A stretch of DNA of 64,000 nt from Eledone cirrhosa. Taxonomy: Eukaryota > Mollusca > Cephalopoda > Octopoda > Eledonidae. The notes beneath the pieces were generated by a model. That model saw nothing but the letters and a program-made list of their open reading frames with translations, searched no databases and was not told the origin of the DNA. Both the position numbers and the translations under genes were made by a program. The DNA is taken from contig OZ024744.1 of the NCBI GenBank assembly GCA_964016885.1, positions 115,361,302-115,425,301 of the forward strand, written 5' to 3'. Below, piece after piece: positions 3,307 through 64,000 of this stretch. Each line of letters opens with the position of its first letter. The stretch's first letter is position 1.

Positions 3307-3309
3307 AGA
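3299..3309 (+). repeat. Left target-site duplication of SINE
   Basis: ATTATATTAGA at 3299-3309 is repeated exactly at 3492-3502 and brackets the SINE. Confidence 0.8.
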
Positions 3310-3491: not shown

Positions 3492-3502
3492 ATTATATTA
3501 GA
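3492..3502 (+). repeat. Right target-site duplication of SINE
   Basis: Exact second copy of ATTATATTAGA; see 3299-3309. Confidence 0.8.
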
Positions 3503-6979: not shown

Positions 6980-9009
6980 ATATAACCTCTACATTAACTA
7001 CCGATGTTTCACTACCATTTAACATTACATCAGATGTCCATTGAAACATGTTAGCTTCATTTCTCTCCAGTCTCTATATAACCTCTACATTAACTATCAT
7101 ATCTCACCACCATGTAACATTACATCAAATGTCCATTGAAACATGTTAGCTTCATTTCTCTCCAGTCTCTATATAACCTCTACATTAACTACCCATGTCT
7201 CACTACCATGTAACATTACATCACAGGGCCATTAAAACATGTTTGCTTCATTTCTCTCCAGTCTCTATATAACCTCTACATTAACTATACATGTCTCACT
7301 ACCATGTAACATTACATCGCAGGGACATTGAAACATGCTAGCTTCATTTATCTCCAGTCTCTGTATAACCTCTACATTAACTACCCATATGTCACTACCA
7401 TGTAACATTACATCAGATGTCCATTGTAACATGTTAGCTTCATGTCTCTCCAGTCTCTATATAACCTCTACATTAACTACCCATGTCTCACTACCATGTA
7501 ACATTACATCAGATGTCCATTGAAACATGCTGGCTTCATTTCTCTCCAGTCTCTATATAACCTCTACATTAACTACCCATGTCTCACTACCATGTAATAT
7601 TACATCACATGTCCATTGAAACATGCTAGCTTCATGTCTCTCCAGTCTCTGTATAACCTCTACATTAACTATCCATGTCTCACTACCATGTAATATTACA
7701 TCACATGTCCATTGAAACATGCTAGCTTCATTTCTCTCCAGTATCTATATAACCTCTACATTAACTACCCATGTCTAACTACCATGTAACATTACATCAG
7801 ATGTCCATTGAAACATGTTAGCTTCATTTCTCTCCAGTCTCTATATAACCTCTACATTAATTACCCATGTCTCACTACCATGTAACATTACATCACAGGG
7901 CCATTGAAACATGCTAGCTTCATGTCTCTCCAGTCTCTATATAAACTCTACATTAACTACCCATGTCTCACTACCATGTAACATTACATCAGATGTCCAT
8001 TGACACATGTTAGCTTCATTTCTCTCCAGTCTCTATATAACCTCTACAGTAACTACCCATGTCTCACTACCATGTAACATTACATCAAATGTCCATTGAA
8101 ACATGCTAGCTTCATTTCTCTCCAGTCTGTGTATAACCTCTACATTAACTACCATGTCTCACTACCATGTAACATTACGTCAGATGTCCATTGAAACATG
8201 CTAGCTTCATTTCTCTCTAGTCTCTATATAACTTCAACATTAACTACCCATGTCTCACTACCATGTAACACTACATCACATGTCCATTGAAACATGCTAG
8301 CTACATGTCTCTCCAGTATCTATATAACCTCTACATTAACTACCCATATCTCACTACCATGTAACATTACATCAGATGTCCATTGAAACATGCTAGGTTC
8401 ATATCTCTCAAGTCTCTATATAACCTCTACATTAACTACCCATGTCTCACTACCATGTAACATTGCATCAGATGTCCATTGAAACATGCTAGCTTCATTT
8501 CTCTCTAGTCTCTATAAAACCTCTACATTAACTACCCATGTCTCACTAACATGTAACATTACATCAGACGTCCATTGAAACAAAGTAACTTCATTTCTCT
8601 CCAGTCTCTATATAACCTCTACATTAACTACCCATGTCTCACTACCATGTAACATTACATCAGATGTCCATTGAAACATGCTAGCTTCATGTCTCTCCAG
8701 TCTCTATATAACCTCTACATTAACTACCCATGTCTCACTACCATGTAACATTACGTCAGATGTCCATTGAAACATGCTAGCTTCATTTCTATCTTGTCTC
8801 TCTATAACCTCTACATTAACTACACATATCTTACTACCATGTAACATTACATCAGATGTCCATTGAAACATGTTAGCTTCATTTATCTCCAGTCTCTATG
8901 TAACCTCTACATTAACTACCCATGTCTCACTACCATGTAACATTACATCAGATGTCCATTGTAACATGTTAGCTTCATGTCTCTCCAGTCTCTATTTAAC
9001 CTCTACATT

Positions 9010-9702
9010 AACTACCCATGTCTCACTACCATGTAACATTACATCAGATGTCCATTGAAACATACTAGCTTCATGTCTCTCCAGTCTCTATATAACCTCT
9101 ACATTAACTACCATGTCTCACTACCATGTAACATTACATCAGTTGTTCATTGAAACATGTTAACTTCATGTCTCTCCAGTCTCTATATAACCTCTACATT
9201 AACTACCCATGTCTCACTACCATGTAACATTACATCAGATGTCCATTGAAACATGCTAGCTTCATGTCTCTCCAGTCTCTATATAACCTCTACAGTAACT
9301 ACCATGTCTCACTACCATGTAACATTGCATCAGATGTCCATTGAAACATGCTAGCATCATTTCTCTCCAGTCTCTCCGTATGACCTCTACACTAACTTCC
9401 TCTGTCTCACTTTCATGTAACATTACATCAGATGTCCATTGAAACATGCTAGGTTCATTTCTCTCCAGTCTCTATATAACCTCTACATTAACTACCCATG
9501 TCTCACTACCATGTAACATTATATCAGATGTCCATTGAAACATGCTAGCTTCATTTCTCTCCAGTCTCTATATAACCTCTACAGTAACTACCCACGTCTC
9601 ACTACCATGTCACATTACATAAGATGTCCATTGAAACATGCTAGCTTCATTTATCTCCAGTCCTATATAACCTCTACATTAACTACCCATGTCTCACTAC
9701 CA
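9010..9702. repeat. Block A, duplicated at 11407-12099
   Basis: A 693-bp block recurs with an offset of 2397 bases. It shares rare variants, including CTCTCCGTATGACCTCTACA, a monomer with CAGTCCTATATAACC, and CACATTACATAAGATG. The match ends at the change ACCATGTAAC to ACCAGGTAAC. Confidence 0.75.
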
Positions 9703-10660
9703 TGTAACATTACATCAGATGTCCATTGTAACATGTTAGCTTCATGTCTCTCCAGTCTCTATATAACCTCTAGATTAACTACCCATGTCTCACTACCATG
9801 TAACATTACATCAGATGTCCATTGAAACATGCTAGCATCATTTCTCTCCAGTCTCTCCATATGACCTCTACACTAACTTCCTCTGTCTCACTTCCATGTA
9901 ACATTAAATCAGATCTCCATTGTAACATGCTAGCTTCATACCTCCCCAGTCTCTATATAACCTCTACATTAACTATCATGTCTCACTACCATGTAACATT
10001 ACATCAGATGTCTATTGAAACATGCTAGCTTCATGTCTCTCCAGTCTCTATATAACCTCTACATTGACTACCCATATCTCACTACCATGTAACATTACAT
10101 CAGATGTCCATTGAAACATGCGAGCTTCATTTCTCTCCAGTCTCTATATAACCTCTACATTAACTACCCATGTCTCACTACCATGTAACACTACATCAGA
10201 TGTCCATTGAAACATGTTAGCTTCATGTCTCTCCAGTCTCTATATAACCTCTACATTAACTACCCATGTCTCACTACCATGTAACATTACATTACAGGGC
10301 CATTGAAACATGCTAAGGTCATTACACCCCAGTCTCTATATAACCTCTACATTAACTATCATGTCTCACTACCATGTAACATTACATCAGATGTCTATTG
10401 AAACATGCTAGCTTCATTTCTCTCCGTCTTTATATAACCTCTACATTAACTAACCATGTCTCACTACCATGTAACATTACATCAGATGTCCATTGAAACA
10501 TGTTAGCTTCATGTCTCTCCAGTCTCTATATAACCTCTACAGTAACTACCCATGTCTCACTAACATGTAATATTATATCAGATGTCCATTGAAACATGCT
10601 AGTTCCATGTGTTTCTAGTCTCTATATAACCTCTACATTAACTACCCATGTCTCACTACC

Positions 10661-11347
10661 AGGTAACATTACATCAGATGTCCATTGAAACATGCTAGCT
10701 TCATGTCTCTCCAGTCTCTATATAACCTCTACATTAACTACCCATGTCTCACTACCATGTAACATTACATCAGATGTCCATTGAGACATGCTAGGTTCAT
10801 TTCTCTCCAGTCTCTATATAACCTCTACATTAACTACCATGTCTCACTACCATGTAATATTACATCAGATGTCCATTGAGACATGCTAGGTTCATTTCTC
10901 TCTAGTCTCTATATAAGCTCCACATCAACGACCTCTGTCTCACTACCATGTAACATTACATCAGATGTCCATTGAAACATGCTAGCTTCATGTCTCTCTA
11001 GTCTCTATATAACCTCTACATTAACTACTCATGTCTCACTACCATGTAACATTACATCAGATGTCTATTGAAACATGCTAGCTTCATTTCTCTCCAGTCT
11101 CTATATAACCTCAACATTAACTACCCATGTCTCACTACCATGTAACATTACATCAGATTTCCATTGAAACATGCTAGCTTCATTTCTCTCCAGTCTTTAT
11201 TTAACCTCTACATTAACTACCCATGTCTCACTACCATGTAACATTACATCAGATGTCCATTGAAACATGTTAGCTTCATTTCTCTCCAGTCTCTATATAA
11301 CCTCCACATCAACTACCTCTGTCTCACTACCATGTAACATTACATCA
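10661..11347. repeat. Block C, duplicated at 12099-12785
   Basis: A 687-bp block recurs with an offset of 1438 bases, beginning at the rare variant ACCAGGTAAC and ending where CATCAGATG changes to CATCACAGGG. Shared rare variants include CATTGAGACATGCTAGG and CATCAACGACCTCTG. Confidence 0.75.
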
Positions 11348-11406
11348 GATGTCCATTGAAACATGTTAGCTTCATGTCTCTCCAGTCTCTATATAACCTC
11401 TACAGT

Positions 11407-12785
11407 AACTACCCATGTCTCACTACCATGTAACATTACATCAGATGTCCATTGAAACATACTAGCTTCATGTCTCTCCAGTCTCTATATAACCTCTACA
11501 TTAACTACCATGTCTCACTACCATGTAACATTACATCAGTTGTTCATTGAAACATGTTAACTTCATGTCTCTCCAGTCTCTATATAACCTCTACATTAAC
11601 TACCCATGTCTCACTACCATGTAACATTACATCAGATGTCCATTGAAACATGCTAGCTTCATGTCTCTCCAGTCTCTATATAACCTCTACAGTAACTACC
11701 ATGTCTCACTACCATGTAACATTGCATCAGATGTCCATTGAAACATGCTAGCATCATTTCTCTCCAGTCTCTCCGTATGACCTCTACACTAACTTCCTCT
11801 GTCTCACTTTCATGTAACATTACATCAGATGTCCATTGAAACATGCTAGGTTCATTTCTCTCCAGTCTCTATATAACCTCTACATTAACTACCCATGTCT
11901 CACTACCATGTAACATTATATCAGATGTCCATTGAAACATGCTAGCTTCATTTCTCTCCAGTCTCTATATAACCTCTACAGTAACTACCCACGTCTCACT
12001 ACCATGTCACATTACATAAGATGTCCATTGAAACATGCTAGCTTCATTTATCTCCAGTCCTATATAACCTCTACATTAACTACCCATGTCTCACTACCAG
12101 GTAACATTACATCAGATGTCCATTGAAACATGCTAGCTTCATGTCTCTCCAGTCTCTATATAACCTCTACATTAACTACCCATGTCTCACTACCATGTAA
12201 CATTACATCAGATGTCCATTGAGACATGCTAGGTTCATTTCTCTCCAGTCTCTATATAACCTCTACATTAACTACCATGTCTCACTACCATGTAATATTA
12301 CATCAGATGTCCATTGAGACATGCTAGGTTCATTTCTCTCTAGTCTCTATATAAGCTCCACATCAACGACCTCTGTCTCACTACCATGTAACATTACATC
12401 AGATGTCCATTGAAACATGCTAGCTTCATGTCTCTCTAGTCTCTATATAACCTCTACATTAACTACTCATGTCTCACTACCATGTAACATTACATCAGAT
12501 GTCTATTGAAACATGCTAGCTTCATTTCTCTCCAGTCTCTATATAACCTCAACATTAACTACCCATGTCTCACTACCATGTAACATTACATCAGATTTCC
12601 ATTGAAACATGCTAGCTTCATTTCTCTCCAGTCTTTATTTAACCTCTACATTAACTACCCATGTCTCACTACCATGTAACATTACATCAGATGTCCATTG
12701 AAACATGTTAGCTTCATTTCTCTCCAGTCTCTATATAACCTCCACATCAACTACCTCTGTCTCACTACCATGTAACATTACATCA
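11407..12785. repeat. Mosaic block joined from copies of A and C
   Basis: The left half (11407-12099) copies 9010-9702 and the right half (12099-12785) copies 10661-11347. The switch falls at the ACCAGGTAAC variant, inside one monomer. Confidence 0.7.
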
Positions 12786-15412
12786 CAGGGACTTTAAAAC
12801 ATGCTAGCTTCATTTCTCTCCAGTCTCTATATAACCTCTACAGTAACTACCCATGTCTCACTACCATGTAACATTACATCAGATGTCCATTGCAACATGA
12901 TAGCTTCATTTCTCTCCAGTCTCTATATAACCTCTACGTTAACTACCCATGTCTCACTACCATGTAACATTACATCAGATGTCCATTGAAACATGTTAGC
13001 TTCATTTCTCTCCAGTCTCTATATAACCTCCACATCAACTACCTCTGTCTCACTACCATGTAACATTACATCAGATGTCCATTGAAACATGCTAGCTTCA
13101 TGTCTCTCCAGTCTATATATAACCTCTACATTAACTACCCATGTCTCACCACCATGTAACATTGCATCAGATGTCCATTGAAACATGCTAGCATCATTTC
13201 TCTCCAGTCTCTCCATATGACCTCTACACTAAATTCCTCTGTCTCACTTCCATGTAACATTACATCAGATGTCCATTGAAACATGTTAGCTTCATGTCTC
13301 TCCAGTCTCTATATAACCTCTACAGTAACTACTCATGTCATATTACCATGTAACATTACATCAGATGTCTATTGAAACATGCTAGCTTCATGTCTCTCCA
13401 GTCTCTATATAACCTCTACATTAACTACCCATGTCTCACTACCATGTAACATTACATCAGATGTCCATTGACACATGCTAGCTTCATTTCTCTCCAGTCT
13501 CTATATAACCTCTACATTAACTACTCATGTCTCACTACCATGTAACATTACATCAGATGTCCATTGAAACATGCTAGCTTCATGTCCCTCCAGTCTCTAT
13601 ATAACCTCTACATTAACTACCCATGTCTCACTACCATGTAACACTACATCAGATGTCCATTGACACATGCTAGCTTCATTTCTCTCAAGTCTCTGTATAA
13701 CCTCTACATTAACTACTCATGTCTCACTACCATGTAATATTACATCAGATCTCCATTATAACATGCTAGCTTCATATCTCCCCAGTCTCTATATAACCTC
13801 TACAGTAACTACCCATGTCTCACTACCATGTAACACTACATCACAGGGCCATTGAAACATGCTAAGGTCATTACACTCCAGTCTCTGTATAGCCTCTACA
13901 TTAACTACCCATGTCTCACTACCATGTAACATTACATCAGATGTCCATTGAAACATGCTAGCTTCATGTCTCTCCAGTCTCTATATAACCTCTACATTAG
14001 CTACCCATGTCTCTCTACCATGTAACATTACATCAGATGTCCATTGAAACATGCTAGCTTCATTTCTGTCCAGTCTCTATATAACCTCTACATTAACTAC
14101 CCATGTCTCACTACCATGTAATGTTACATCAGATGTCCATTGAAACATGCTAGCTTCATTTCTCTCCAGTCTCTATATAACCTCTACATTAACTACCATG
14201 TCTCACTACCATGTAATGTTACATCAGATGTCCATTGAGACATGCTAGGTTCATTTCTCTCTCGTCTCTATATAACCTCTACATTAATTACCCATATCTC
14301 ACTACCATGTAACACTACATCAGATGTCCATTGTAACATGCTAGCTTCATGTCTCTCCAGTCTCTATATAACCTCTACATTAACTACCCATGTCACACTA
14401 CCATGTAACATTACATCAGATGTTTATTGAAACATGTTAGCTTCACTTCTATCTTGTCTCTATATAACCTCTACATTAACTACCCATGTCTCACTACCAT
14501 GTAACATTACATCAGATGTCTATTGAAACATGCTAGCTTCATTTCTCTCCAGTCTTTATATAACCTCAACATTAACTACCCATGTCTCACCACCATGTAA
14601 CATTACATCAGATTTCCATTGAAGCATGCTAGCTTCATTTCTCTCCAGTCTTTATTTAACCTCTACATTAACTACCCATGTCTCACTACCATGTAACATT
14701 ACATCAGATGTCCATTGAAACGTGTTAGCTTCATTTCTCTCCAGTCTCTATATAACCTCCACATCACCTACCGCTGTCTCACTACCATGTAACATTACAT
14801 CAGATGTCCATTGAAACATGCTAGCTTCACTTCTCTCCAGTTTCTATATAACCTCTACAGTAACAACCCATGTCTCACTACCATGTAACATTACATCACA
14901 GGGACTTTAAAACATGCTAGCTTCATTTCTCTCCAGTCTCTATATAACCTCTACATTAACTACCATGTCTCACTACCATGTAACATTACATCAGATGTCT
15001 ATTGAAACATGCTAGCTTCATTTCTCTCCAGTCTCTATATAACCTCTACATTAACTACTATGTCTCACTACCATGTAACATTATATCAGATGTCCATTGA
15101 AACATGTTAGCTTCATGTCTCTCCAGTCTCTGTATAACCTCTACATTAACTACCCTTGTCTCACTACCATGTAACATTACATAAGATGTCTATTGAAACA
15201 TGCTAGCTTCATATCTCCCCAGTCTCTATATAACCTCTACATTAACTACCCATGTCTCACTACCATGTAACATTACATCAGATGTCCATTGAAACATGCT
15301 AGCTTCATTTCTCTCCAGTCTCTATATAACCTCTACATTAACTACCCATGTCTCACTACCATGAAACATTACATCAAATGTCCATTGTAACATGCTAGCT
15401 TCATGTCTCTCC
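12438..15412. repeat. 2975-bp tandem duplication, copy 1
   Basis: 31 monomers are repeated from 15413 with an offset of 2975. Matching rare variants include CACAGGGACTTTAAAACATG, CATGTCATATTACCATG, TCATGTCCCTCCAG and CACCTACCGCTGTCTC. The start is placed where CTCTCTAGTCTC and CTCTCCAGTCTC differ. Confidence 0.8.
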
Positions 15413-18400
15413 AGTCTCTATATAACCTCTACATTAACTACTCATGTCTCACTACCATGTAACATTACATCAGATGTCTATTGAAACATGCTAGCTTCAT
15501 TTCTCTCCAGTCTCTATATAACCTCAACATTAACTACCCATGTCTCACTACCATGTAACATTACATCAGATTTCCATTGAAACATGCTAGCTTCATTTCT
15601 CTCCAGTCTTTATTTAACCTCTACATTAACTACCCATGTCTCACTACCATGTAACATTACATCAGATGTCCATTGAAACATGTTAGCTTCATTTCTCTCC
15701 AGTCTCTATATAACCTCCACATCAACTACCTCTGTCTCACTACCATGTAACATTACATCACAGGGACTTTAAAACATGCTAGCTTCATTTCTCTCCAGTC
15801 TCTATATAACCTCTACAGTAACTACCCATGTCTCACTACCATGTAACATTACATCAGATGTCCATTGCAACATGATAGCTTCATTTCTCTCCAGTCTCTA
15901 TATAACCTCTACGTTAACTACCCATGTCTCACTACCATGTAACATTACATCAGATGTCCATTGAAACATGTTAGCTTCATTTCTCTCCAGTCTCTATATA
16001 ACCTCCACATCAACTACCTCTGTCTCACTACCATGTAACATTACATCAGATGTCCATTGAAACATGCTAGCTTCATGTCTCTCCAGTCTATATATAACCT
16101 CTACATTAACTACCCATGTCTCACCACCATGTAACATTGCATCAGATGTCCATTGAAACATGCTAGCATCATTTCTCTCCAGTCTCTCCATATGACCTCT
16201 ACACTAAATTCCTCTGTCTCACTTCCATGTAACATTACATCAGATGTCCATTGAAACATGTTAGCTTCATGTCTCTCCAGTCTCTATATAACCTCTACAG
16301 TAACTACTCATGTCATATTACCATGTAACATTACATCAGATGTCTATTGAAACATGCTAGCTTCATGTCTCTCCAGTCTCTATATAACCTCTACATTAAC
16401 TACCCATGTCTCACTACCATGTAACATTACATCAGATGTCCATTGACACATGCTAGCTTCATTTCTCTCCAGTCTCTATATAACCTCTACATTAACTACT
16501 CATGTCTCACTACCATGTAACATTACATCAGATGTCCATTGAAACATGCTAGCTTCATGTCCCTCCAGTCTCTATATAACCTCTACATTAACTACCCATG
16601 TCTCACTACCATGTAACACTACATCAGATGTCCATTGACACATGCTAGCTTCATTTCTCTCAAGTCTCTGTATAACCTCTACATTAACTACTCATGTCTC
16701 ACTACCATGTAATATTACATCAGATCTCCATTATAACATGCTAGCTTCATATCTCCCCAGTCTCTATATAACCTCTACAGTAACTACCCATGTCTCACTA
16801 CCATGTAACACTACATCACAGGGCCATTGAAACATGCTAAGGTCATTACACTCCAGTCTCTGTATAGCCTCTACATTAACTACCCATGTCTCACTACCAT
16901 GTAACATTACATCAGATGTCCATTGAAACATGCTAGCTTCATGTCTCTCCAGTCTCTATATAACCTCTACATTAGCTACCCATGTCTCTCTACCATGTAA
17001 CATTACATCAGATGTCCATTGAAACATGCTAGCTTCATTTCTGTCCAGTCTCTATATAACCTCTACATTAACTACCCATGTCTCACTACCATGTAATGTT
17101 ACATCAGATGTCCATTGAAACATGCTAGCTTCATTTCTCTCCAGTCTCTATATAACCTCTACATTAACTACCATGTCTCACTACCATGTAATGTTACATC
17201 AGATGTCCATTGAGACATGCTAGGTTCATTTCTCTCTCGTCTCTATATAACCTCTACATTAATTACCCATATCTCACTACCATGTAACACTACATCAGAT
17301 GTCCATTGTAACATGCTAGCTTCATGTCTCTCCAGTCTCTATATAACCTCTACATTAACTACCCATGTCACACTACCATGTAACATTACATCAGATGTTT
17401 ATTGAAACATGTTAGCTTCACTTCTATCTTGTCTCTATATAACCTCTACATTAACTACCCATGTCTCACTACCATGTAACATTACATCAGATGTCTATTG
17501 AAACATGCTAGCTTCATTTCTCTCCAGTCTTTATATAACCTCAACATTAACTACCCATGTCTCACCACCATGTAACATTACATCAGATTTCCATTGAAGC
17601 ATGCTAGCTTCATTTCTCTCCAGTCTTTATTTAACCTCTACATTAACTACCCATGTCTCACTACCATGTAACATTACATCAGATGTCCATTGAAACGTGT
17701 TAGCTTCATTTCTCTCCAGTCTCTATATAACCTCCACATCACCTACCGCTGTCTCACTACCATGTAACATTACATCAGATGTCCATTGAAACATGCTAGC
17801 TTCACTTCTCTCCAGTTTCTATATAACCTCTACAGTAACAACCCATGTCTCACTACCATGTAACATTACATCACAGGGACTTTAAAACATGCTAGCTTCA
17901 TTTCTCTCCAGTCTCTATATAACCTTTACATTAACTACCTCTGTCTCACTACCATGTAAGATTACATAAGATGTCCATTATAACATGCTAGCTTCATGTC
18001 TCTCTAGTCTCTATATAACCTCTACATTAACTACTCATGTCACACTACCATTTAACATTACATCAGATGTCCATTGAAACATGCTAGCTTCATTTCTCTC
18101 CAGTCTCTATATAACCTCTACATTAACTACCATGTCTCACTACCATGTAACATTACATCAGATGTCTATTGAAACATGCTAGCTTCATTTCTCTCCAGTC
18201 TCTATATAACCTCTACATTAACTACTATGTCTCACTACCATGTAACATTATATCAGATGTCCATTGAAACATGTTAGCTTCATGTCTCTCCAGTCTCTGT
18301 ATAACCTCTACATTAACTACCCTTGTCTCACTACCATGTAACATTACATAAGATGTCTATTGAAACATGCTAGCTTCATATCTCCCCAGTCTCTATATAA

Positions 18401-18607
18401 CCTCTACATTAACTACCCATGTCTCACTACCATGTAACATTACATCAGATGTCCATTGAAACATGCTAGCTTCATTTCTCTCCAGTCTCTATATAACCTC
18501 TACATTAACTACCCATGTCTCACTACCATGAAACATTACATCAAATGTCCATTGTAACATGCTAGCTTCATGTCTCTCCAGTCTCTATATAACCTCTACA
18601 TTAACTA
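15413..18607. repeat. 2975-bp tandem duplication, copy 2, with a two-monomer difference
   Basis: It follows copy 1 directly. The offset is 2975 up to about 17927 and then becomes 3167 (192 bases, two monomers, more) through about 18607. Homology thus runs past the end of copy 1, as expected for unequal exchange followed by a two-monomer indel. Confidence 0.75.
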
Positions 18608-21600
18608 TCCATGTCTCACTACCATGTAACATTACATCAGATGTTCATTGAAACATGCTAGCTTCATTTCTCTCCAGTCTCTATATAACCTCTACATTAA
18701 CTACCCATGTCTCACTACCATGTAACACTACATCACCGGGCCGTTGAAACATACTAGCTTCATTTCTCTCCAGACTTTCTATAACCTCTACATTAACTAC
18801 CCATATATCACTACCATGTAAAATTACATCAGATGTCCATTGAAACATGCTAGCTTCATTTCTCTCTAGTCTCTCTATAACCTCTACATTAACTACCCAT
18901 GTCTCACTACCATGTAACATTACAGCAGATGTCCATTGAAACATGTTAGCTTCATGTCTCTCCAGTCTCTATATAAGCTCTACATTGACTACTCATGTCT
19001 CTCTACCATGTAACATTACATCAGATGTCCATTGAAACATGTTAGCTTCATATCTCTCCAGTCTCTATATAACCTCTACATTAACTACCCATGTCTCACT
19101 ACAATTTAACATTACATCAGATGTCCATTGAAACATGCTAGCTTCATTACTCTCCAGTCTCTATATAACCTCTATATTAACTACCCATGTCTCACTACCA
19201 TGTAACATTACATCAGATGTCCATTGAAACATGCTACCTTCATTTCTCTCCAGTCTCTATATAACCTTTACATTAACTACCCATGTCTCACTACCATGTA
19301 ACATTACATCAGATGTCCATTGAAACATGCTAGCTTCGTTTCTCTCTAGTCTCTCTATAACCTCTACATTAACTACCCATGTCTCACTACCATGTAACAT
19401 TACATCAGATGTCCATTGAAACATGCTAGCTTCATTTCTCTCCGTCTTTATATAACCTCTACATTAACTAACCATGTCTCACTACCATGTAACATTACAG
19501 CAAATGTCCATTGAAACATGTTAGCTTCATGTCTCTCCAGTCTCTATATAACCTCTACATTAACTACCCATGTCTCACTACCATGTAACATTACATCAGA
19601 TGTCCATTGAAACATGTTAGCTTCATTTCTCTCCAGTCTCTGTATAACCTCTACATTAGCTACCCATGTCTCACTACCATGTAACATTACATCAGACGTC
19701 CATTGTAACATGCTAGCTTCATGTCTCTACAGTCTCTATATAACCTCTACAGTAACTACCCATATCTCACTACCATGTAACATTACATCAGATATCCATT
19801 GAAACATGCTAGCTTCATGTCTCTCCAGTCTCTATATAACCTCTACATTAACTACCCACGTCTCACTACCATGTAACATTACATCAGATGTCCATTGAAA
19901 CATGCTTGCTTCATTTCTCTCCAGTCTCTATATAACCTCTACATTAACTACCCATGTCTCACTACCATGTAACATTACATCAGATGTCCATTGAAACATG
20001 CTACCTTCATGTCTCTCCAGTCTCTATATAACCTCTCCATTAACTACCCATGTCTCACTACCATGTAACATTACATCAGATGTCCATTGAAACATGCTTG
20101 CTTCATTTCTCTCCAGTCTCTATATAACCTCTACATTAACTACCCATATCTCACTACCATGTAACATTACATCAGATGTCCATTGAAACATGCTAGCTTC
20201 ATTTCTCTCCAGTCTCTATATAACCTCTACATTAACTACCCATGTCTCACTACCATGTAACATTACATCAGATGTCCATTGAAACATGCTAGCTTCATTT
20301 CTCTCCAGTCTCTATATAACCTCTACATTACCTACCCATGTCTCACTACCATGTAACATTACATCAGATGTCCATTGACACATGCTAGCTTCATTTCTCT
20401 CCAGTCTCTATATAACCTCTACAGTAACAACCCAGGTCTCACTACCATGTAACATTACATCAGATGTCCATTGAAACATGTTAGCTTCATGTCTCTCAAG
20501 TCTCTACATAACCTCTACATTAACTACCCATGTGTCACTACCATGTAACATTACATCAGATGTCCATTGAAACATGCTAGGTTCATTTCTCTCCAGTCTC
20601 TATATAAACTCTACATTAACTACCCATGTCTCACTAGCATGTAGCATTACATCAGATTCCCATTGAAACATGTTAACTTCACGTCTCTCTAGTCTCCATA
20701 TAACCTCTACATTAACTACCCATGTCTCACTACCATGTAACATTACATCAGATGTCCACTGAAACATGTTAGCTTCATGTCTCTCCAGTCTCTATATAAC
20801 CTCTACATTAACTACCCATGTCTCACTACCATGTAACATTACATCAGATGTCCATTGAAACATGCTAGCTTCATTTCTCTCCAGTCTCTGTATAACCTCC
20901 ACAGTAACTACCCATATTTCACTACCATGTAACATTACATAAGATGTCCATTGAAACATGCTAGCTTCATTTCTCTCCAATCTCTATATAACCTCTACAT
21001 TGACTACCCATGTCTCACTACCATGTAACATTACATCAGATGTCTATTGAAACATGCTAGCCTCATTTCTCTCCAGTCTCTATATAACCTCTACATTAAC
21101 TACCCATGTCTCACTACCATGTAACATTACATCACAGGGCCATTGAAACATGCTAGCTTCATTTCTCTCCAATCTCTATATAACCTCTACATTAACTACC
21201 CATGTCTCACTACCATGTAACATTACATCACAGGGCCATTGAAACATGCTAGCTTCATTTCTCTCCAGTCTCTATATAACCTCTACAGTAACTACCCATA
21301 TCTCACTACCATGTAACATTACATCAGATGTCTATTGAAACATGTTAGCTTCATTTCTCCACAGTCTCTATATAACCTCTACATTAACTACCGATATCTC
21401 ACTACCATGTAACATTGCATCAGATGTCCATTGAAACATGCTAGCTTCATTTCCCTCCAGTCTCTATGGAACCTCTACATTAACTACTCATGTCTCACTA
21501 CCATGTAACATTACATAAGATGTCCATTGAAACATGCTAGCTTCATGTCTCTCTCGTCTCTATATAACCTCTACATTAACTACCCATGTCTCACTACCAT

Positions 21601-51100: not shown

Positions 51101-54100
51101 ACTACCATGTAACATTACATCAGATGTCCATTGAAACATGCTAGCTTCATTTCTCTCCAGTCTCTATATAACCTCTACATTAACTACCCATGTCTCACTA
51201 CCATGTAACACTACATCGGATGACCATGTAACATGCTAGCTTCATGTCTCTCCAGTCTCTATATAACCTCTACATTAACTACCCATGTCTCACTACCATG
51301 TAACACTACATCAGATGTCCATTGAAACATGCTAGCCTCATTTCTCTCCAGTCTCTATATAACCTCTACATTAACTACCCACGTCTCACTACCATGTAAC
51401 ATTACATCAGATGTCCATTGAAACATGCTAGCTTCATTTCTCTCCAGTCTCTATATAACCTCTACATTAACTACCCATGACTCACTACCATGTAACATTA
51501 CATCAGATGTCCATTGAAACATGTTAGCTTCATTTCTCTCAAGTCTCTATATAACCTCTACATTAACTACCCATGTCTCACTATCATGTAACATTACATC
51601 AGATGTCCATTGAAACATGCTAGCTTCATGTCTCTCCAGTCTCTATATAACCTCTACATTAACTACCCATGTCTCACTACCATGTAACACTAAATCAGAT
51701 GTCCATTGAAACATGCTAGCTTCATTTCTCTCCAGTCTCTATATAACCTCTACATTAACTACCCATGTCTCACTACCATGTAACACTACATCAGATGTCC
51801 ATTGAAACATGCTAGCTTCATTTCTCTCCAGTCTCTATATAACCTCTATATTAACTACCCATGTCTCACTACCATGTAACACTACATCGGATGACCATGT
51901 AACATGCTAGCTTCATTTCTCTCCGTCTTTATATAACCTCTACATTAACTAACCATGTCTTACTACCATGTAACATTACATCAGATGTCCATTGAAACAT
52001 GCTAGCTTCATGTCTCTCCAGTCTCTATATAACCTCTACATTAACTACCCATGTCTCACTACCATGTAACATTACATCAGATGTCCATTGAAACATAGTA
52101 GCTTCATTTCTCACCAGTCTCTATATAACCTCTACATTAACTACCCATGTCTCACTTCCATGTAACATTACATCACAGGGCCATTGAAACATGTTAGCTT
52201 CATTTCTCTCCAGTCTCTATATAACCTCTACATTAACTACCCATGTCTCACTACCATGTAACATTACATCACATGTCCATTGAAACATGCTAGCTTCATT
52301 TCTCTTCAGTCTCTATATAACCTCTACATTAACTACCCATGTCTCACTACCATGTAACACTACATCAGATGTCCATTGAAACATGTTAGTTTCATTTCTC
52401 TCCAGTCTCTATATAACCTCTACATTAACTACCAATGTCTCACTACCATGTAACATTACATTACAGGGCCATTGAAACACGCTAGCTTCATTTCTCTCCA
52501 GTCTCTATATAACCTCTACAGTAACTACCCATGTCTCACTACCATGTAACATTACATCAGATGTCCATTGAAACATGCTAGCTTCATGTCTCTCCAGTCT
52601 CTATATAACCTCTACATTAACTACCCATGTCTCACTACCATGTAACATTACATCAGATGTCCATTGAAACATGCTAGCTTCATGTCTCTCCAGTCTCTAT
52701 ATAACCTCTACATTAACTACCCATGTCTCACTACCATGTAACATTACATCAGATGTCCATTGAAACATGCTAGCTTCATTTCTCTCCAGTTTCTATATAA
52801 CCTCTACAGTAACTACCCATGTCTCACTACCATGTAACATTACATCACAGGGCCATTGAAACACGCTAGCTTCATTTCTCACCAGTCTCTATATAACCTC
52901 TACATTAACTACCCATGTCTCACTACCATGTAACATTACATCACAGGGCCATTGAAACATGCTAGCTTCATGTCTCTCCAGTCTCTATATAACCTATACA
53001 TTAACTACCCATGTCTCACTACCATGTAACATTACATCAGATGTCTATTGAAACACGCTAGCTTCATTTCTCCAGTCTCTATATAACCTCTACATTAACT
53101 ACCCATGTCTCACTACCATGTAACATTACATCAGATGTCTATTGAAACATGCTAGCTTCATGTCTCTCCAGTCTCTATATAACCTCTACATTAACTACCC
53201 ATGTCTCACTACCATGTAACATTACATCAGATGTCCATTGAAACATGCTAGCTTCATTTCTCCACAGTCTCTATATAACCTCTACATTAACTACCCATGC
53301 CTCACTACCATGTAACATTACATCAGATGTCCATTGAAACATGCTAGCTTCATGTCTCTCTCGTCTCTATATAACCTCTACATTAACTACCCATGTCTCA
53401 CTACCATGTAATATTACATCACAGGGCCATTGAAACATGCTAGCTTCATGTCTCTCCAGTCTCTATATAACCTCTACATTAACTACCCATGTCTCACTAC
53501 CATGTAACATTACATCACAGGGCCATTGAAACATGCTAGCTTCATTTCTCTCCAATCTCTATATAACCTCTACATTAACTACCCATGTCTCACTACCATG
53601 TAACAATACATCACAGGGCCATTGAAACATGTTAGCTTCATTTCTCTCCAGTCTCTCTATAACCTCTACATTAACTACCCATGTCTCACTACCATGTAAC
53701 ATTACGTTACAGGTCCATTGAAACATGCTAGCTTCATTTCTCTCCAGTCTCTATATAACCTCTACATTAACTACCCATGTCTCTCTACCATGTAACATTA
53801 CATCACATGTCCATTGAAACAGGCTAGCTTCATTTCTCTCCAGTCTCTATATAACCTCTACAGTAACTACCCATGTCTCACTACCATGTAACATTACATA
53901 AGATGTCCATTGAAACATGCTAGCTTCATATCTCTCCAGTCTCTATATAACCTCTACATTAACTACCCATATCTCACTACCATGTTACATTACATTAAAT
54001 GTCCATTGAAACATGCTAGCTTCATTTCTCTCCAGTCTCTATATAACCTCTATATTAACTACACATGTCTCACTCCCATGTAACATTACATCAGGTGTCC

Positions 54101-54112
54101 ATTGAAACATGC
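48170..54112. repeat. 5943-bp tandem duplication, copy 2
   Basis: This starts exactly where copy 1 ends. The left limit is where GTTAG (42226) and GCTAG (48169) differ. Homology to copy 1 continues to about 54121, where TCATTTCTC becomes TCATGTCTC. Confidence 0.85.
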
Positions 54113-56364
54113 TAGCTTCATGTCTCTCTCGTCTCTATATAACCTCTACATTAACTACCCATGTCTCACTACCATGTAATATTACATCAGATGTCCACTG
54201 ACACATGCTAGCTTCATTTCTCTCCAGTCTCTATATAACCTCTACATTAACTACTCATGTCTCACTACCATGTAACATTACATAAGATGTCCATTGAAAC
54301 ATGCTAGCTTCATGTCTCTCTCGTCTCTATATAACCTCTACATTAACTACCCATGTCTCACTACCATGTAATATTACATCAGATGTCCACTGACACATGC
54401 TAGCTTCATTTCTCTTCAGTCTCTATATAACCTCTACATTAACTACCCATGTCTCACTACCATGTAACACTACATCAGATGTCCATTGAAACATGTTAGT
54501 TTCATTTCTCTCCAGTCTCTATATAACCTCTACATTAACTACCAATGTCTCACTACCATGTAACATTACATTACAGGGCCATTGAAACACGCTAGCTTCA
54601 TTTCTCTCCAGTCTCTATATAACCTCTACAGTAACTACCCATGTCTCACTACCATGTAACATTACATCAGATGTCCATTGAAACATGCTAGCTTCATGTC
54701 TCTCCAGTCTCTATATAACCTCTACATTAACTACCCATGTCTCACTACCATGTAACATTACATCAGATGTCCATTGAAACATGCTAGCTTCATGTCTCTC
54801 CAGTCTCTATATAACCTCTACATTAACTACCCATGTCTCACTACCATGTAACATTACATCAGATGTCCATTGAAACATGCTAGCTTCATTTCTCTCCAGT
54901 TTCTATATAACCTCTACAGTAACTACCCATGTCTCACTACCATGTAACATTACATCACAGGGCCATTGAAACACGCTAGCTTCATTTCTCACCAGTCTCT
55001 ATATAACCTCTACATTAACTACCCATGTCTCACTACCATGTAACATTACATCACAGGGCCATTGAAACATGCTAGCTTCATGTCTCTCCAGTCTCTATAT
55101 AACCTATACATTAACTACCCATGTCTCACTACCATGTAACATTACATCAGATGTCTATTGAAACACGCTAGCTTCATTTCTCCAGTCTCTATATAACCTC
55201 TACATTAACTACCCATGTCTCACTACCATGTAACATTACATCAGATGTCTATTGAAACATGCTAGCTTCATGTCTCTCCAGTCTCTATATAACCTCTACA
55301 TTAACTACCCATGTCTCACTACCATGTAACATTACATCAGATGTCCATTGAAACATGCTAGCTTCATTTCTCCACAGTCTCTATATAACCTCTACATTAA
55401 CTACCCATGCCTCACTACCATGTAACATTACATCAGATGTCCATTGAAACATGCTAGCTTCATGTCTCTCTCGTCTCTATATAACCTCTACATTAACTAC
55501 CCATGTCTCACTACCATGTAATATTACATCACAGGGCCATTGAAACATGCTAGCTTCATGTCTCTCCAGTCTCTATATAACCTCTACATTAACTACCCAT
55601 GTCTCACTACCATGTAACATTACATCACAGGGCCATTGAAACATGCTAGCTTCATTTCTCTCCAATCTCTATATAACCTCTACATTAACTACCCATGTCT
55701 CACTACCATGTAACAATACATCACAGGGCCATTGAAACATGTTAGCTTCATTTCTCTCCAGTCTCTCTATAACCTCTACATTAACTACCCATGTCTCACT
55801 ACCATGTAACATTACGTTACAGGTCCATTGAAACATGCTAGCTTCATTTCTCTCCAGTCTCTATATAACCTCTACATTAACTACCCATGTCTCTCTACCA
55901 TGTAACATTACATCACATGTCCATTGAAACAGGCTAGCTTCATTTCTCTCCAGTCTCTATATAACCTCTACAGTAACTACCCATGTCTCACTACCATGTA
56001 ACATTACATAAGATGTCCATTGAAACATGCTAGCTTCATATCTCTCCAGTCTCTATATAACCTCTACATTAACTACCCATATCTCACTACCATGTTACAT
56101 TACATTAAATGTCCATTGAAACATGCTAGCTTCATTTCTCTCCAGTCTCTATATAACCTCTATATTAACTACACATGTCTCACTCCCATGTAACATTACA
56201 TCAGATGTCCATTGAAACATGCTAGCTTCATGTCTCTCTCGTCTCTATATAACCTCTACATTAACTACCCATGTCTCACTACCATGTAATATTACATCAG
56301 ATGTCCACTGACACATGCTAGCTTCATTTCTCTCCAGTCTCTATATAACCTCTACATTAACTAC
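52285..56364. repeat. 2110-bp tandem duplication (52285-54254 and 54395-56364)
   Basis: About 1970 bases recur at an offset of 2110, including the 94-bp marker (53054/55164), the CATCACATGTCCATTG plus AACAGGCTAGC monomer (about 53805/55915) and the ATGTTACATTACATTAAATG monomer (about 53983/56093). It duplicates the end of the 5943-bp copy 2, so it is younger than or linked to that event. Confidence 0.75.
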
Positions 56365-59300
56365 CCATGTCTCACTACCATGTAACATTACATCACAGGG
56401 CCATTGAAACATGTTAGCTTCATTTCTCTCCAGTCTCTCTATAAACTCTACATTAACTACCCATGTCTCACTACCATGTAACACTACATCAGATGTCCAT
56501 TGAAACATGCTAGCTTCATGTCTCTCCAGTCTCCATATAACCTCTACATTAACTACCCATGTCTCACTACCATGTAACACTACATCAGATGTCCATTGAA
56601 ACATGCTAGCTTCACTTCTCTCCAGTCTCTATATAACCTCTACATTAACTACCATGTCTCACTACCATGTAACATTACATCAGATGTCCATTGAAACATG
56701 TTAGCTTCATTTCTCGCCGTCTTTATATAACCTCTACATTAACTAACCATGTCTCACTACCATGTAACATTACATCAGATGTCCATTGAAACATGCTAGC
56801 TTCATGTCTCTCCAGTCTCTATATAACCTCTACATTAACTACCCATGTCTCACTACCATGTAACATTACATCAGATGTCCATTGAAACATAGTAGCTTCA
56901 TTTCTCACCAGTCTCTATATAACCTCTACATTAACTACCCATGTCTCACTACCATGTAACACTACATCGGATGACCATGTAACATGCTAGATTCATGTCT
57001 CTCCAGTCTCTATATAACCTCTACATTAACTACCCATGTCTCACTACCATGTAACACTACATCAGATGTCCATTGAAACATGATAGCCTCATTTCTCTCC
57101 AGTCTCTATATAACCTCTACATTAACTACCCATGTCTCACTACCATGTAACATTAAATCAGATGTCCATTGAAACATGCTAGCTTCATTTCTCTCCAGTC
57201 TCTATATAACCTCTACATTAACTACCCATGTCTCACTACCATGTAACACTACATCGGATGACCATGTAACATGCTAGATTCATGTCTCTCCAGTCTCTAT
57301 ATAACCTCTACATTAACTACCCATGTCTCACTACCATGTAACACTACATCAGATGTCCATTGAAACATGCTAGCCTCATTTCTCTCCAGTCTCTATATAA
57401 CCTCTACATTAACTACCCATGTCTCACTACCATGTAACATTACATCAGATGTCCATTGAAACATGCTAGCTTCATTTCTCTCCAGTCTCTATATAACCTC
57501 TACATTAACTACCCATGACTCACTACCATGTAACATTACATCAGATGTCCATTGAAACATGTTAGCTTCATTTCTCTCAAGTCTCTATATAGCCTCTACA
57601 TTAACTACCCATGTCTCACTATCATGTAACATTACATCGGATGACCATGTAACATGCTAGATTCATGTCTCTCCAGTCTCTATATAACCTCTACATTAAC
57701 TACCCATGTCTCACTACCATGTAACATTACATCAGATGTCCATTGAAACATAGTAGCTTCATTTCTCACCAGTCTCTATATAACCTCTACATTAACTACC
57801 CATGTCTCACTTCCATGTAACATTACATCAGATGTCCATTGAAACATGCTAGCTTCATTTCTCTCCAGTCTCTATATAACCTCTATATTAACTACCCATG
57901 TCTCACTACCATGTAACACTACATCGGATGACCATGTAACATGCTAGCTTCATTTCTCTCCAGTCTCTATATAACCTCTATATTAACTACCCATGTCTCA
58001 CTACCATGTAACACTACATCAGATGTCCATTGAAACATGCTAGCTTCATTTCTCTCCAATCTCTATATAACCTATACATTAACTACCCATGTCTCACTAC
58101 CATGTAACATTACATCAGATGTCCATTGAAACATACTAGCTTCATGTCTCTCCAGTCTCTATATAACCTCTACGTTAACTACCATGTCTCACTACCATGT
58201 AACATTACATCAGGTGTCCATTGAAACATGTTAGCTTCATTTCTCTCCGTCTTTATATAACCTCTACATTAACTAACCATGTCTCACTACCATGTAACAT
58301 TACATCAGATGTCCATTGAAACATGCTAGCCTCATGTCTCTCCAGTCTCTATATAACCTCTACATTAACTACCCATGTCTCACTACCATGTAACATTACA
58401 TCAGATGTCCATTGAAACATAGTAGCTTCATTTCTCACCAGTCTCTATATAACCTCTACATTAACTACCCATGTCTCACTTCCATGTAACATTACATCAC
58501 AGGGCCATTGAAACATGTTAGCTTCATTTCTCTCCAGGCTCTATATAACCTCTACATTAACTACCCATGTCTCACTACCATGTAACATTACATCACATGT
58601 CCATTGAAACATGCTAGCTTCATTTCTCTTCAGTCTCTATATAAATTCTACATTAACTACCCATGTCTCACTACCATGTAACACTACATCAGATGTCCAT
58701 TGAAACATGTTAGTTTCATTTCTCGCCAGTCTCTATATAACCTCTACATTAACTACCCATGTCTCACTACCATGTAACACTACATCAGATGTCCATTGAA
58801 ACATGTTAGTTTCATTTCTCTCCAGTCTCTATATAACCTCTACATTAACTACCAATGTCTCACTACCATGTAACATTACATTACAGGGCCATTGAAACAC
58901 GCTAGCTTCATTTCTCTCCAGTCTCTATATAACCTCTACAGTAACTACCCATGTCTCACTACCATGTAACATTACATCAGATGTCCATTGAAACATGCTA
59001 GCTTCATGTCTCTCCAGTCTCTATATAACCTCTACATTAACTACCCATGTCTCACTACCATGTAACATTACATCAGATGTCCATTGAAACATGCTAGCTT
59101 CATTTCTCTCCAGTCTCTATATAACCTCTACAGTAACTACCCATGTCTCACTACCATGTAACATTACATCACAGGGCCATTGAAACACGCTAGCTTCATT
59201 TCTCACCAGTCTCTATATAACCTCTACATTAACTACCCATGTCTCACTACCATGTAACATTACATCACAGGGCCATTGAAACATGCTAGCTTCATGTCTC

Positions 59301-61089
59301 TCCAGTCTCTATATAACCTCTACATTAACTACCCATGTCTCACTACCATGTAACATTACATCAGATGTCTATTGAAACATGCTAGCTTCATGTCTCTCCA
59401 GTCTCTATATAACCTCTACATTAACTACCCATGTCTCACTACCATGTAACATTACATCAGATGTCCATTGAAACATGCTAGCTTCATGTCTCTCTCGTCT
59501 CTATATAACCTCTACATTAACTACCCATGTCTCACTACCATGTAATATTACATCACAGGGACATTGAAACATGCTAGCTTCATGTCTCTCCAGTCTCTAT
59601 ATAACCTCTACATTAACTACCCATGTCTCACTACCATGTAACACTACATCAGATGTCCATTGAAACATGCTAGCTTCATGTCTCTCCAGTCTCTATATAA
59701 CCTCTACATTAACTACCCATGTCTCACTACCATGTAACACTACATCAGATGTCCATTGAAACATGCTAGCTTCATGTCTCTCCAGTCTCTATATAACCTC
59801 TACATTAACTACCCATGTCTCACTACCATGTAACATTACATCACAGGGCCATTGAAACACGCTAGCTTCATTTCTCACCAGTCTCTATATAACCTCTACA
59901 TTAACTACCCATGTCTCACTACCATGTAACATTACATCACAGGGCCATTGAAACATGCTAGCTTCATGTCTCTCCAGTCTCTATATAACCTATACATTAA
60001 CTACCCATGTCTCACTACCATGTAACATTACATCAGATGTCTATTGAAACACGCTAGCTTCATTTCTCCAGTCTCTATATAACCTCTACATTAACTACCC
60101 ATGTCTCACTACCATGTAACATTACATCAGATGTCTATTGAAACATGCTAGCTTCATGTCTCTCCAGTCTCTATATAACCTCTACATTAACTACCCATGT
60201 CTCACTACCATGTAACATTACATCAGATGTCCATTGAAACATGCTAGCTTCATTTCTCCACAGTCTCTATATAACCTCTACATTAACTACCCATGCCTCA
60301 CTACCATGTAACATTACATCAGATGTCCATTGAAACATGCTAGCTTCATGTCTCTCTCGTCTCTATATAACCTCTACATTAACTACCCATGTCTCACTAC
60401 CATGTAATATTACATCACAGGGCCATTTAAACATGCTAGCTTCATGTCTCTCCAGTCTCTATATAACCTCTACATTAACTACCCATGTCTCACTACCATG
60501 TAACATTACATCACAGGGCCATTGAAACATGCTAGCTTCATTTCTCTCCAATCTCTATATAACCTCTACATTAACTACCCATGTCTCACTACCATGTAAC
60601 AATACATCACAGGGCCATTGAAACATGTTAGCTTCATTTCTCTCCAGTCTCTCTATAACCTCTACATTAACTACCCATGTCTCACTACCATGTAACATTA
60701 CGTTACAGGTCCATTGAAACATGCTAGCTTCATTTCTCTCCAGTCTCTATATAACCTCTACATTAACTACCCATGTCTCTCTACCATGTAACATTACATC
60801 ACATGTCCATTGAAACAGGCTAGCTTCATTTCTCTCCAGTCTCTATATAACCTCTACAGTAACTACCCATGTCTCACTACCATGTAACATTACATAAGAT
60901 GTCCATTGAAACATGCTAGCTTCATATCTCTCCAGTCTTTATATAACCTCTACATTAACTACCCATATCTCACTACCATGTTACATTACATTAAATGTCC
61001 ATTGAAACATGCTAGCTTCATTTCTCTCCAGTCTCTATATAACCTCTATATTAACTACACATGTCTCACTACCATGTAACATTACATCA

Positions 61090-63390
61090 GATGTCCATTG
61101 AAACATGCTAGCTTCATGTCTCTCTCGTCTCTATATAACCTCTACATTAACTACCCATGTCTCACTACCATGTAATATTACATCAGATGTCCATTGACAC
61201 ATGCTAGCTTCATTTCTCTCCAGTCTCTATATAACCTCTACATTAACTACTCATGTCTCACTACCATGTTACATTACATAAGATGTCCATTGAAACATGC
61301 TAGCTTCATGTCTCTCTCGTCTCTATGTAACCTCTACATTAACTACCCATGTCTCACTACCATGTAATATTACATCACAGGGCCATTGAAACATGCTAGC
61401 TTCATGTCTCTCCAGTCCCTATATAACCTCTACATTAACTACCCATGTCTCACTACCATGTAACATTACATCACAGGGCCATTGAAACATGCTAGCTTCA
61501 TTTCTCTCTGATCTCTATATAACCTCTACATTAACTACCCATGTCTCACTACCATGTAACATTACATCACAGGGCCATTGAAACATGTTAGCTTCATTTC
61601 TCTCCAGTCTCTCTATAAACTCTACATTAACTACCCATGTCTCACTACCATGTAACACTACATCAGATGTCCATTGAAACATGCTAGCTTCATGTCTCTC
61701 CAGTCTCTATATAACCTCTACATTAACTACCCATTCTCACTACCATGTAACACTACATCAGATGTCCATTGAAACATGCTAGCTTCATGTCTCTCCAGTC
61801 TCTATATAACCTCTACATTAACTACCCATGTCTCACTACCATGTAACATTACATCACAGGGCCATTGAAACACGCTAGCTTCATTTCTCACCAGTCTCTA
61901 TATAACCTCTACATTAACTACCCATGTCTCACTACCATGTAACATTACATCACAGGGCCATTGAAACATGCTAGCTTCATGTCTCTCCAGTCTCTATATA
62001 ACCTATACATTAACTACCCATGTCTCACTACCATGTAACATTACATCAGATGTCTATTGAAACACGCTAGCTTCATTTCACCAGTCTCTATATAACCTCT
62101 ACATTAACTACCCATGTCTCACTACCATGTAACATTACATCAGATGTCTATTGAAACATGCTAGCTTCATGTCTCTCCAGTCTCTATATAACCTCTACAT
62201 TAACTACCCATGTCTCACTACCATGTAACATTACATCAGATGTCCATTGAAACATGCTAGCTTCATTTCTCCACAGTCTCTATATAACCTCTACATTAAC
62301 TACCCATGCCTCACTACCATGTAACATTACATCAGATGTCCATTGAAACATGCTAGCTTCATGTCTCTCTCGTCTCTATATAACCTCTACATTAACTACC
62401 CATGTCTCACTACCATGTAATATTACATCACAGGGCCACTGAAACATGCTAGCTTCATGTCTCTCCAGTCTCTATATAACCTCTACATTAACTACCCATG
62501 TCTCACTACCATGTAACATTACATCACAGGGCCATTGAAACATGCTAGCTTCATTTCTCTCCAATCTCTATATAACCTCTACATTAACTACCCATATCTC
62601 ACTACCATGTTACATTACATTAAATGTCCATTGAAACATGCTAGCTTCATTTCTCTCCACTCTCTATATAACCTCTATATTAACTACACATGTCTCACTA
62701 CCATGTAACATTACATCAGATGTCCATTGAAACATGCTAGCTTCATGTCTCTCTCGTCTCTATATAACCTCTACATTAACTACCCATGTCTCACTACCAT
62801 GTAATATTACATCAGATGTCCATTGACACATGCTAGCTTCATTTCTCTCCAGTCTCTATATAACCTCTACATTAACTACTCATGTCTCACTACCATGTAA
62901 CATTACATAAGATGTCCATTGAAACATGCTAGCTTCATGTCTCTCTCGTCTCTATGTAACCTCTACATTAACTACCCATGTCTCACTACCATGTAATATT
63001 ACATCACAGGACCGTTGAAACATGCTAGCTTCATGTCTCTCCAGTCCCTATATAACCTCTACATTAACTACCATGTCTCACTACCATGTAACATTACATC
63101 ACAGGGCCATTGAAACATGCTAGCTTCATTTCTCTCCGATCTCTATATAACCTCTACATTAAATACCCATGTCTCACTACCATGTAACATTACATCACAG
63201 GGCCATTGAAACATGTTAGCTTCATTTCTCTCCAGTCTCTCTATAAACTCTACATTAACTACCCATGTCTCACTACCATGTAACACTACATCAGATGTCC
63301 ATTGAAACATGCTAGCTTCATGTCTCTCCAGTCTCTATATAACCTCTACATTAACTACCCATGTCTCACTACCATGTAACACTACATCAG
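61090..63390. repeat. Tandem duplication with offset about 1629 (61090-61760 and 62718-63390)
   Basis: Shared rare variants are CTCTCTCGTCTCTATGTAACC, CAGTCCCTATATAACC, TCTCTCTGATCTC/TCTCTCCGATCTC and CTCTCTATAAACTC. One-to-two-base indels shift the offset slightly between 1628 and 1629. Confidence 0.65.
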
Positions 63391-64000
63391 ATGTCCATTG
63401 AAACATGCTAGCTTCATGTCTCTCCAGTCTCTATATAACCTCTACATTAACTACCCATGTCTCACTACCATGTAACACTACATCAGATGTCCATTGAAAC
63501 ATGCTAGCTTCACTTCTCTCCAGTCTCTATATAACCTCTACATTAACTACCATGTCTCACTACCATGTAACATTACATCAGATGTCCATTGAAACATGTT
63601 AGCTTCATTTCTCGCCGTCTTTATATAACCTCTACATTAACTAACCATGTCTCACTACCATGTAACATTTAATCAGATGTCCATTGAAACATGCTAGCTT
63701 CATGTCTCTCCAGTCTCTATATAACCTCTACATTAACTACCCATGTCTCACTACCATGTAACATTACATCAGATGTCCATTGAAACATAGTAGCTTCATT
63801 TCTCACCAGTCTCTATATAACCTCTACATTAACTACCCATGTCTCACTACCATGTAACACTACATCGGATGACCATGTAACATGCTAGATTCATGTCTCT
63901 CCAGTCTCTATATAACCTCTACATTAACTACCCATGTCTCACTACCATGTAACACTACATCAGATGTCCATTGAAACATGATAGCCTCATTTCTCTCCAG
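63180..64000. repeat. Copy of 56380-57100, running off the window end
   Basis: The offset is 6802 at 63241 and 6898 from about 63611 onward, the difference being one extra monomer in the right copy. Shared rare variants are CTCGCCGTCTTTATATAACC, GTAACATGCTAGATTCATG and ACATGATAGCCTCAT. The sequence is still in register at base 64000, so the array continues. Confidence 0.7.

Follow-up and report, generated by a model that had tools for sequence, protein, structure and literature searches.

A 111.5-kb satellite array in Eledone cirrhosa related to an internal coding segment of a LINE

The 96-bp array and its counterpart in the LINE

We analyzed a 64,000-nucleotide stretch of the Eledone cirrhosa genome (the window; C28:115361302-115425301 of a 2.98-Gb assembly with 1,582 contigs), in which a 96-bp unit is repeated in tandem beside copies of a long interspersed nuclear element (LINE). 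The unit is homologous to a segment of the open reading frame (ORF) of this LINE, encoded downstream of the reverse transcriptase (RT) and a PHD finger. The features at the locus are listed below, with positions in the window unless a contig is given. UTR denotes an untranslated region and TRF the program Tandem Repeats Finder.

6980..64000, minus strand (the LINE sense): 96-bp satellite array, from TRF, segmentation and the right-hand DNA
4072..4167, plus strand: monomer-homologous segment of the window LINE (MLHGSETW...RWMCNS); 67/96 bases, 18/32 residues, score 90
3502..4470, plus strand: C-terminal part of the LINE ORF (RT end, PHD finger, C-terminal region), from Pfam and protein relatives
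2642..2737, plus strand: second LINE copy with the homologous segment; local alignment score 74, starting at 2642
4471..4866, plus strand: 3' UTR and GAT-rich tail of the window LINE, from the sequence, including a stretch resembling the 48-bp repeat (48-mer score 88; shuffle maximum 51 of 200)
5891..6980, plus strand: 48-bp array, 22.7 copies, related to the LINE 3' UTR, from TRF and scores to LINE 3' ends
C28:115144178-115145307: small sister array of the 96-bp unit, 11.9 units, 223 kb from the large array

The original prediction described a 57-kb array of a 96-bp monomer at this locus. TRF reported the array at 6980-64000 with a period of 96, 594.9 copies, 92% matches and 0% indels. Our own segmentation gave 595 uninterrupted units within the window, 526 of them exactly 96 bp long, with a mean identity of 96% to the consensus. 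The array is larger than predicted, as it passes the window end and stops at C28:115479793 (window-equivalent position 118492) when the next 120 kb are included. It is a long head-to-tail array of a uniform unit, as in satellite DNA, and spans 111.5 kb. There are three interruptions, near the far end. Two of these are copies of one ~469-bp insert, and both are part of an exact duplication of 1,328 bp (offset, 4,659 bp). Exact repeats of at least 300 bp cover 66% of the array, the longest being 2,513 bp, and their offsets vary (e.g., 22, 28, 31, 36, 62 and 108 monomers). We read these exact repeats at many offsets as repeated block duplication. A higher-order repeat of fixed length was rejected: identity at the best lag (0.937) was barely above the mean pairwise identity (0.929; neighboring units, 0.932), and we therefore claim only local block duplications.

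The minus-strand translation of the unit is MLHGSETWVVNVEVI*RLERNEASMFQWTSDV (asterisk, stop codon). The minus-strand unit aligned to the window LINE without gaps from position 4072, with 67/96 identical bases and 18/32 identical residues. In the register of the original prediction (4069-4164), the last codon of the unit stands opposite GCA rather than AGT, which arithmetically gives 69/96 bases. The predicted gapless match (18/32 residues, about 69/96 bases) was thus recovered. When the monomer was compared with the 6,979 bases to the left of the array, the best local score was 90, whereas 500 dinucleotide shuffles scored at most 65.

A protein relative (P0046) was nearer to the monomer than the window LINE was (score 120 vs 99), and the genome was therefore searched for LINE copies. 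In total, 37 LINE-bearing stretches were projected on the 96 columns of the unit. The unselected set comprised 18 copies from a protein search (L029-L046). A further 16 were found with a monomer-like motif and are biased towards the monomer (L048-L063), and three came from the window and its right neighbor. Omission of two rows with gaps (L057 and L061) left a partly selected set of 35 rows (18 + 14 + 3). The monomer matched the majority sequence of the 18 unselected copies at 71/96 positions without gaps (single copies, 67–72), whereas the next best rotation reached 35/96. Dinucleotide shuffles (2,000, each compared in all rotations) reached at most 48. The homology of the unit to the mobile element is therefore beyond chance, and the predicted relationship withstood comparison with shuffled controls. 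With the partly selected 35-row majority, the match rose to 75/96, no other rotation exceeded 36, and the best of 2,000 shuffles was again 48. The differences from this majority numbered 4, 8 and 9 at codon positions 1, 2 and 3, respectively, and 15 of the 21 were transitions. The window LINE (3547-4470 in the original prediction, which took it as the nearest source) was rejected as the direct parent of the satellite, since other genomic copies are closer to the monomer. An ancestral-state test, in which minor monomer variants carried the LINE base in 298 of 561 cases, was driven by few sites and was given no weight.

A natural LINE copy (L071) has a 1,040-residue stop-to-stop frame with the Pfam domains Exo_endo_phos, RVT_1 and PHD. 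The monomer-homologous segment begins at residue 905 of this frame, and the source of the satellite is therefore coding sequence, neither UTR nor tail. Endonuclease and RT lie together in this one ORF, as in RTE-type elements. The LINE is provisionally assigned to the RTE clade by analogy with the octopus element RTE-2_OV. In the window ORF (3502..4470), RVT_1 scored 29.4 bits, just below the cut-off of 29.6, and PHD scored above its cut-off. This ORF had 338 protein relatives, 120 of which were listed. The segment keeps its place in these relatives. It was reached by six of the seven that were aligned, including one from Hydractinia, while P0049 ends earlier, and it was also viewed in the 30 best of the 120 listed. 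The presence of the segment in LINE relatives of other animals speaks against its capture by the LINE from the satellite. It thus belongs to the LINE, and such a capture is hardly likely. As judged from the alignments and the L071 domains, the original prediction is supported in its proposal that one coding segment of the LINE, located behind the RT and the zinc (PHD) finger, was amplified head to tail and makes up the 96-bp unit.

On the minus strand, positions 535-1168 of the window appeared by eye to carry a disrupted N-terminal portion of a LINE of this kind, reading VGTMNVGTLKGRSNEVVEMLERKKVDVCCVQGTRWRGGSARF where L071 has VGTINVGSMKGRAGEIVEMLERKEVDVCCVQETRWRGGSARV. Two pieces of this region gave no Pfam match, and window positions 1-10000 gave no Rfam match at gathering scores.

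Genomic distribution and related arrays

A 21-mer of the monomer matched the genome 576 times, on one strand only (0 reverse matches), and a reversed-pattern control gave 0 matches. Of these matches, 573 fell within the window or the 120 kb adjoining it on the right, two in the small sister array and one outside the examined DNA. The repeat is thus nearly confined to one locus, with 575/576 matches in two neighboring arrays of one contig, and it lacks the spread over many loci or chromosomes that classical satellites often show.

On its LINE-downstream side, the small array runs into the LINE ORF, which is gapped right behind the array. The junction, including part of the last unit, scored 219 against L031, whereas none of 40 shuffles exceeded 68. 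Without the array part, the flank scored 162 against the LINE (shuffles, at most 61). The flanks of the small and large arrays had only short matches in common, and these recurred at several places like dispersed repeats.

Arrays were also found inside other LINE copies. The core motif AATGAAGCAAGCATG was searched for at spacings of 34–121 bp, with the 96-bp array excluded. Tandem spacing occurred at two further loci (contigs C23 and C24), so that repeats of the segment inside LINE copies, which the original prediction had raised, do exist in this genome. The core 15-mer occurs singly 2,394 times. The LINE copy on C23 carries 13.1 units of 54 bp (18 codons) with LINE sequence on both sides: the ORF enters (SETWAMIAEEMQKLERNEASMLQW), 18 codons repeat, and the ORF leaves (MYNVNMYE*QSMAEL). 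The array border shows 3 bp of microhomology. Against the LINE, the 110-bp flanks scored 83 upstream and 73 downstream, compared with at most 47 and 44, respectively, in 100 shuffles each. Farther downstream, beyond the LINE edge at this locus, the best match was a dispersed repeat. The LINE copy on C24 carries 4.7 units of 79 bp beside 6.2 units of 27 bp; the LINE ORF lies on the downstream side (score 358), and the upstream side reads N. The physical link between array and element therefore differs among loci: LINE sequence adjoins the 54-bp array on both sides and the small 96-bp array on one side, and none was found at the edges of the large array.

A control stretch ~170 bp further down the ORF was searched at spacings of 60–90 bp only, a narrower range than that of the core search. 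It gave 17 matches at six loci, and the reversed control gave 0. Four of these loci carry 75-bp units (L065, 16.9 copies; L069, 5.0; L066, 3.0; L070, 2.9). LINE sequence lies upstream at all four (scores 316, 351, 78 and 332) and downstream at the two loci where that border was compared, L070 (306) and L066 (133). Of the remaining two, L067 has mixed units of 43, 58 and 101 bp, and at L068 a 40-bp array occupies all 1.1 kb. The core and control stretches were compared by locus counts. Because the control stretch also bears arrays, seeding extends beyond the 96-bp stretch, which is not shown to be special, contrary to the original prediction. The 75-bp border is common to the four LINE copies, three on C13 (L065, L069 and L070) and one on C12 (L066). 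These loci may represent one duplicated LINE that spread or the repeated formation of the same border.

The 48-bp array at 5891..6980 directly abuts the 96-bp array in the opposite LINE sense. Owing to these opposite senses, the two arrays are not one LINE copy stretched out. The 48-bp unit scored 85–103 against LINE 3' ends, compared with at most 51 in 200 shuffles. Measured in four copies, the match lies 413–646 bp behind the segment start, where the 3' UTR is located. One further LINE copy, with the match closer in, scored 125. In the opposite sense, the unit scored 166, 106 and 99 to repeats beside three LINE copies. At the locus with the score of 166 (L056; C2:136991561-136992395), a LINE copy is followed by a tandem array of the 48-bp type with opposite sense, an arrangement that resembles the one in the window, possibly by chance. 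That 48 is half of 96 is probably a coincidence.

The surroundings are rich in tandem repeats, which by TRF make up 72%, 85% and 91% of stretches of 40, 40 and 184 kb round the locus, the last including the array. Twelve local tandem units were compared with the LINE panel, with 25 shuffles each. The 96-bp, the 48-bp and one 95-bp unit clearly matched, and a 45-bp and a 97-bp unit were slightly above the shuffles (49 vs 38 and 56 vs 47, respectively). The match of a 59-bp unit was rejected as an artifact, since the LINE piece used contains the edge of the 59-bp array.

Three other repeats of this neighborhood were recorded. A 95-bp array of five units lies at C28:115152726-115153201 (L023), and this repeat recurs round the window and at LINE-bearing loci elsewhere. 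The 59-bp array extends over at least ~50 kb (C28:115494962-115545300; L015-L020), with a LINE copy inside it at ~115534550-115535417. About 26 kb of 29-bp repeats occupy C28:115326745-115353351 (L025-L028) as one 21-kb block followed by eight blocks of 0.3–1.1 kb. The eight blocks alternate in orientation, the TRF consensus alternating with its reverse complement.

Origin of the satellite

We propose, with a probability of about 0.82, that the satellite was born in place from a tandem duplication within a decayed LINE copy and then grew by blocks. In a decayed copy of this abundant LINE, an ORF stretch of ~96 bp starting near residue 905 would have been duplicated in tandem, with slippage or repair at short repeats present by chance as the likely route. 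This duplication would have lengthened in place to a short array. Growth to >110 kb would have followed through duplicated blocks of tens of monomers, in a domain that was already rich in tandem repeats and may have favored such growth. Both 96-bp arrays, the small one near 115.144 Mb and the large one, would go back to one origin event, one of the two preceding the other. The same first steps would have occurred several times over in other LINE copies, and the reading frame would have had no part in the formation of the satellite.

Several observations weigh against this account. The large array is not bordered by LINE sequence at its far edge (best scores 42 sense and 43 antisense; shuffle maximum 62), nor is there LINE sequence on the far side of the 48-bp array that adjoins its near edge (47 and 50; shuffle maximum 55). 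The other flank of the small array does not resemble the LINE above background, its score being equaled by 26% of 400 random pieces and by 69% of 200 shuffles. Monomers of the small array match the LINE no better than do those of the large array (71.3/96 vs 72.6/96), so that divergence does not point to the founder site. The microhomology at the 96-bp junction is just 2–5 bp, by eye, and one of the 576 monomer 21-mer matches lies outside the examined loci.

The missing LINE at the far edge would also fit an array that formed elsewhere, e.g., on an extrachromosomal circle derived from a LINE copy, before being integrated as an array. The same applies to the other edge, which stands directly against the 48-bp array of opposite LINE sense. 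However, 223 kb away, the small array of this family passes into the LINE ORF on one side, and other arrays are located inside LINE copies. We therefore regard integration of a ready-made array as unlikely.

It is rather improbable that the segment is a true hotspot whose own sequence causes repeated expansion, be it through template switching by the RT of the LINE or through a structure in the RNA or DNA. The same core stretch is indeed arrayed with different borders on C28, C24 and C23. Nevertheless, tandem spacing of 34–121 bp was seen at just two loci although the core 15-mer occurs 2,394 times, and the control stretch ~170 bp further on, despite its narrower spacing range, gave 17 matches at six loci (counts, not rates).

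The original prediction attached meaning to the codon phase of the unit, and a coding repeat under selection would explain a length of 32 codons. The unit length is divisible by 3, and 35 of the 595 units are ungapped and free of stops. However, codon 16 is a stop in 545/595 units, and mean variability at codon positions 1, 2 and 3 is 0.049, 0.041 and 0.029, respectively. The third position is thus the least variable, and the constraint on positions 1 and 2 expected of a coding tandem repeat was not seen. A 95-residue open stretch of the array had no protein relatives among 62 candidates. Units of the related arrays are 79, 43, 40, 58 and 101 bp long, besides 54, 75 and 27 bp. Because of the stops, the least variable third positions and unit lengths elsewhere that are not multiples of 3, the codon phase of the 96-bp unit looks coincidental, and we regard the array as non-coding satellite DNA. 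Selection on a coding repeat is accordingly very improbable. That the LINE and an A+T-rich satellite are alike by chance can be dismissed almost entirely, given 71/96 identities against at most 48 in 2,000 shuffles and the LINE-continuous edge of the small array; nothing was found in favor of this reading.

Birth in place from a decayed LINE copy may be one case of something broader. The LINE ORF would then act as a standing satellite nursery, in which chance repeats seed duplications in dead copies. The stretches and unit lengths would vary, and some arrays would reach at least 100 kb; at this locus, arrays from the ORF and from the 3' UTR adjoin. We consider the odds of this broader view to be about even.

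Precedents and significance

The original prediction was right about a coding origin but went too far in calling it unusual, as the review PMC9659126 already lists satellites from LINE-1 ORF2 (PROsat of Phodopus roborovskii and Pvc 20 of the harbor seal) and from CR1 (HinfI/SCR1 of chicken, from the 3' UTR and partial ORF2). As described there, these satellites and the 96-bp array alike have a tandem monomer related to LINE coding sequence. The 96-bp array differs from them in that its whole unit is a 96-bp piece of an ORF and that it occupies nearly one locus. Its genome also holds small arrays inside LINE copies, a comparison that does not extend to intermediates in the older cases.

The cited portion of work on Lathyrus sativus (PMC7004042) derives satellites from short tandem arrays inside long terminal repeat (LTR) retrotransposons. 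That two-step model, with a short in-element array and an occasional long expansion in a favorable chromosomal domain, resembles our proposal, although it concerns plant LTR retrotransposons rather than a LINE ORF. A model of this kind has also been published for a foldback transposon, Tetris of Drosophila virilis (PMC4079207). There, too, satellite arrays are built from tandem repeats that lie within a mobile element (TIR-220), but these come from the terminal inverted repeats of a DNA transposon and not from an ORF. RTE-2_OV is an octopus LINE of the RTE clade whose 3' UTR is said to be mostly microsatellite (PMC9115989, in part). It resembles the present LINE, by description and not by sequence, in that endonuclease and RT are encoded together in one ORF of comparable length (1,109 residues). 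In the portions cited, PMC8392823 concerns a CR1 fragment that is not tandem, and PMC13282606 is a paper on octopus repeats. Among the listed titles of open-access papers on cephalopod and octopus satellites, none referred to this repeat.

A LINE ORF as the source of a satellite thus has precedent, and the value of the present case lies in the small arrays inside LINE copies. The beginnings of satellites are usually inferred from old, homogenized arrays. Here, apparent stages occur in one genome: the single-copy LINE, arrays of 3–17 units within LINE copies that adjoin them on one or both sides, an array of 12 units bordered by the LINE at one edge only, and an array of 111 kb. In our reading, these stages belong to one process, even though they are different arrays and not a time series. 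If they hold, the rates and breakpoints of satellite birth would be countable per LINE copy, and the birth of a satellite from a mobile element would be open to direct study in a single genome.

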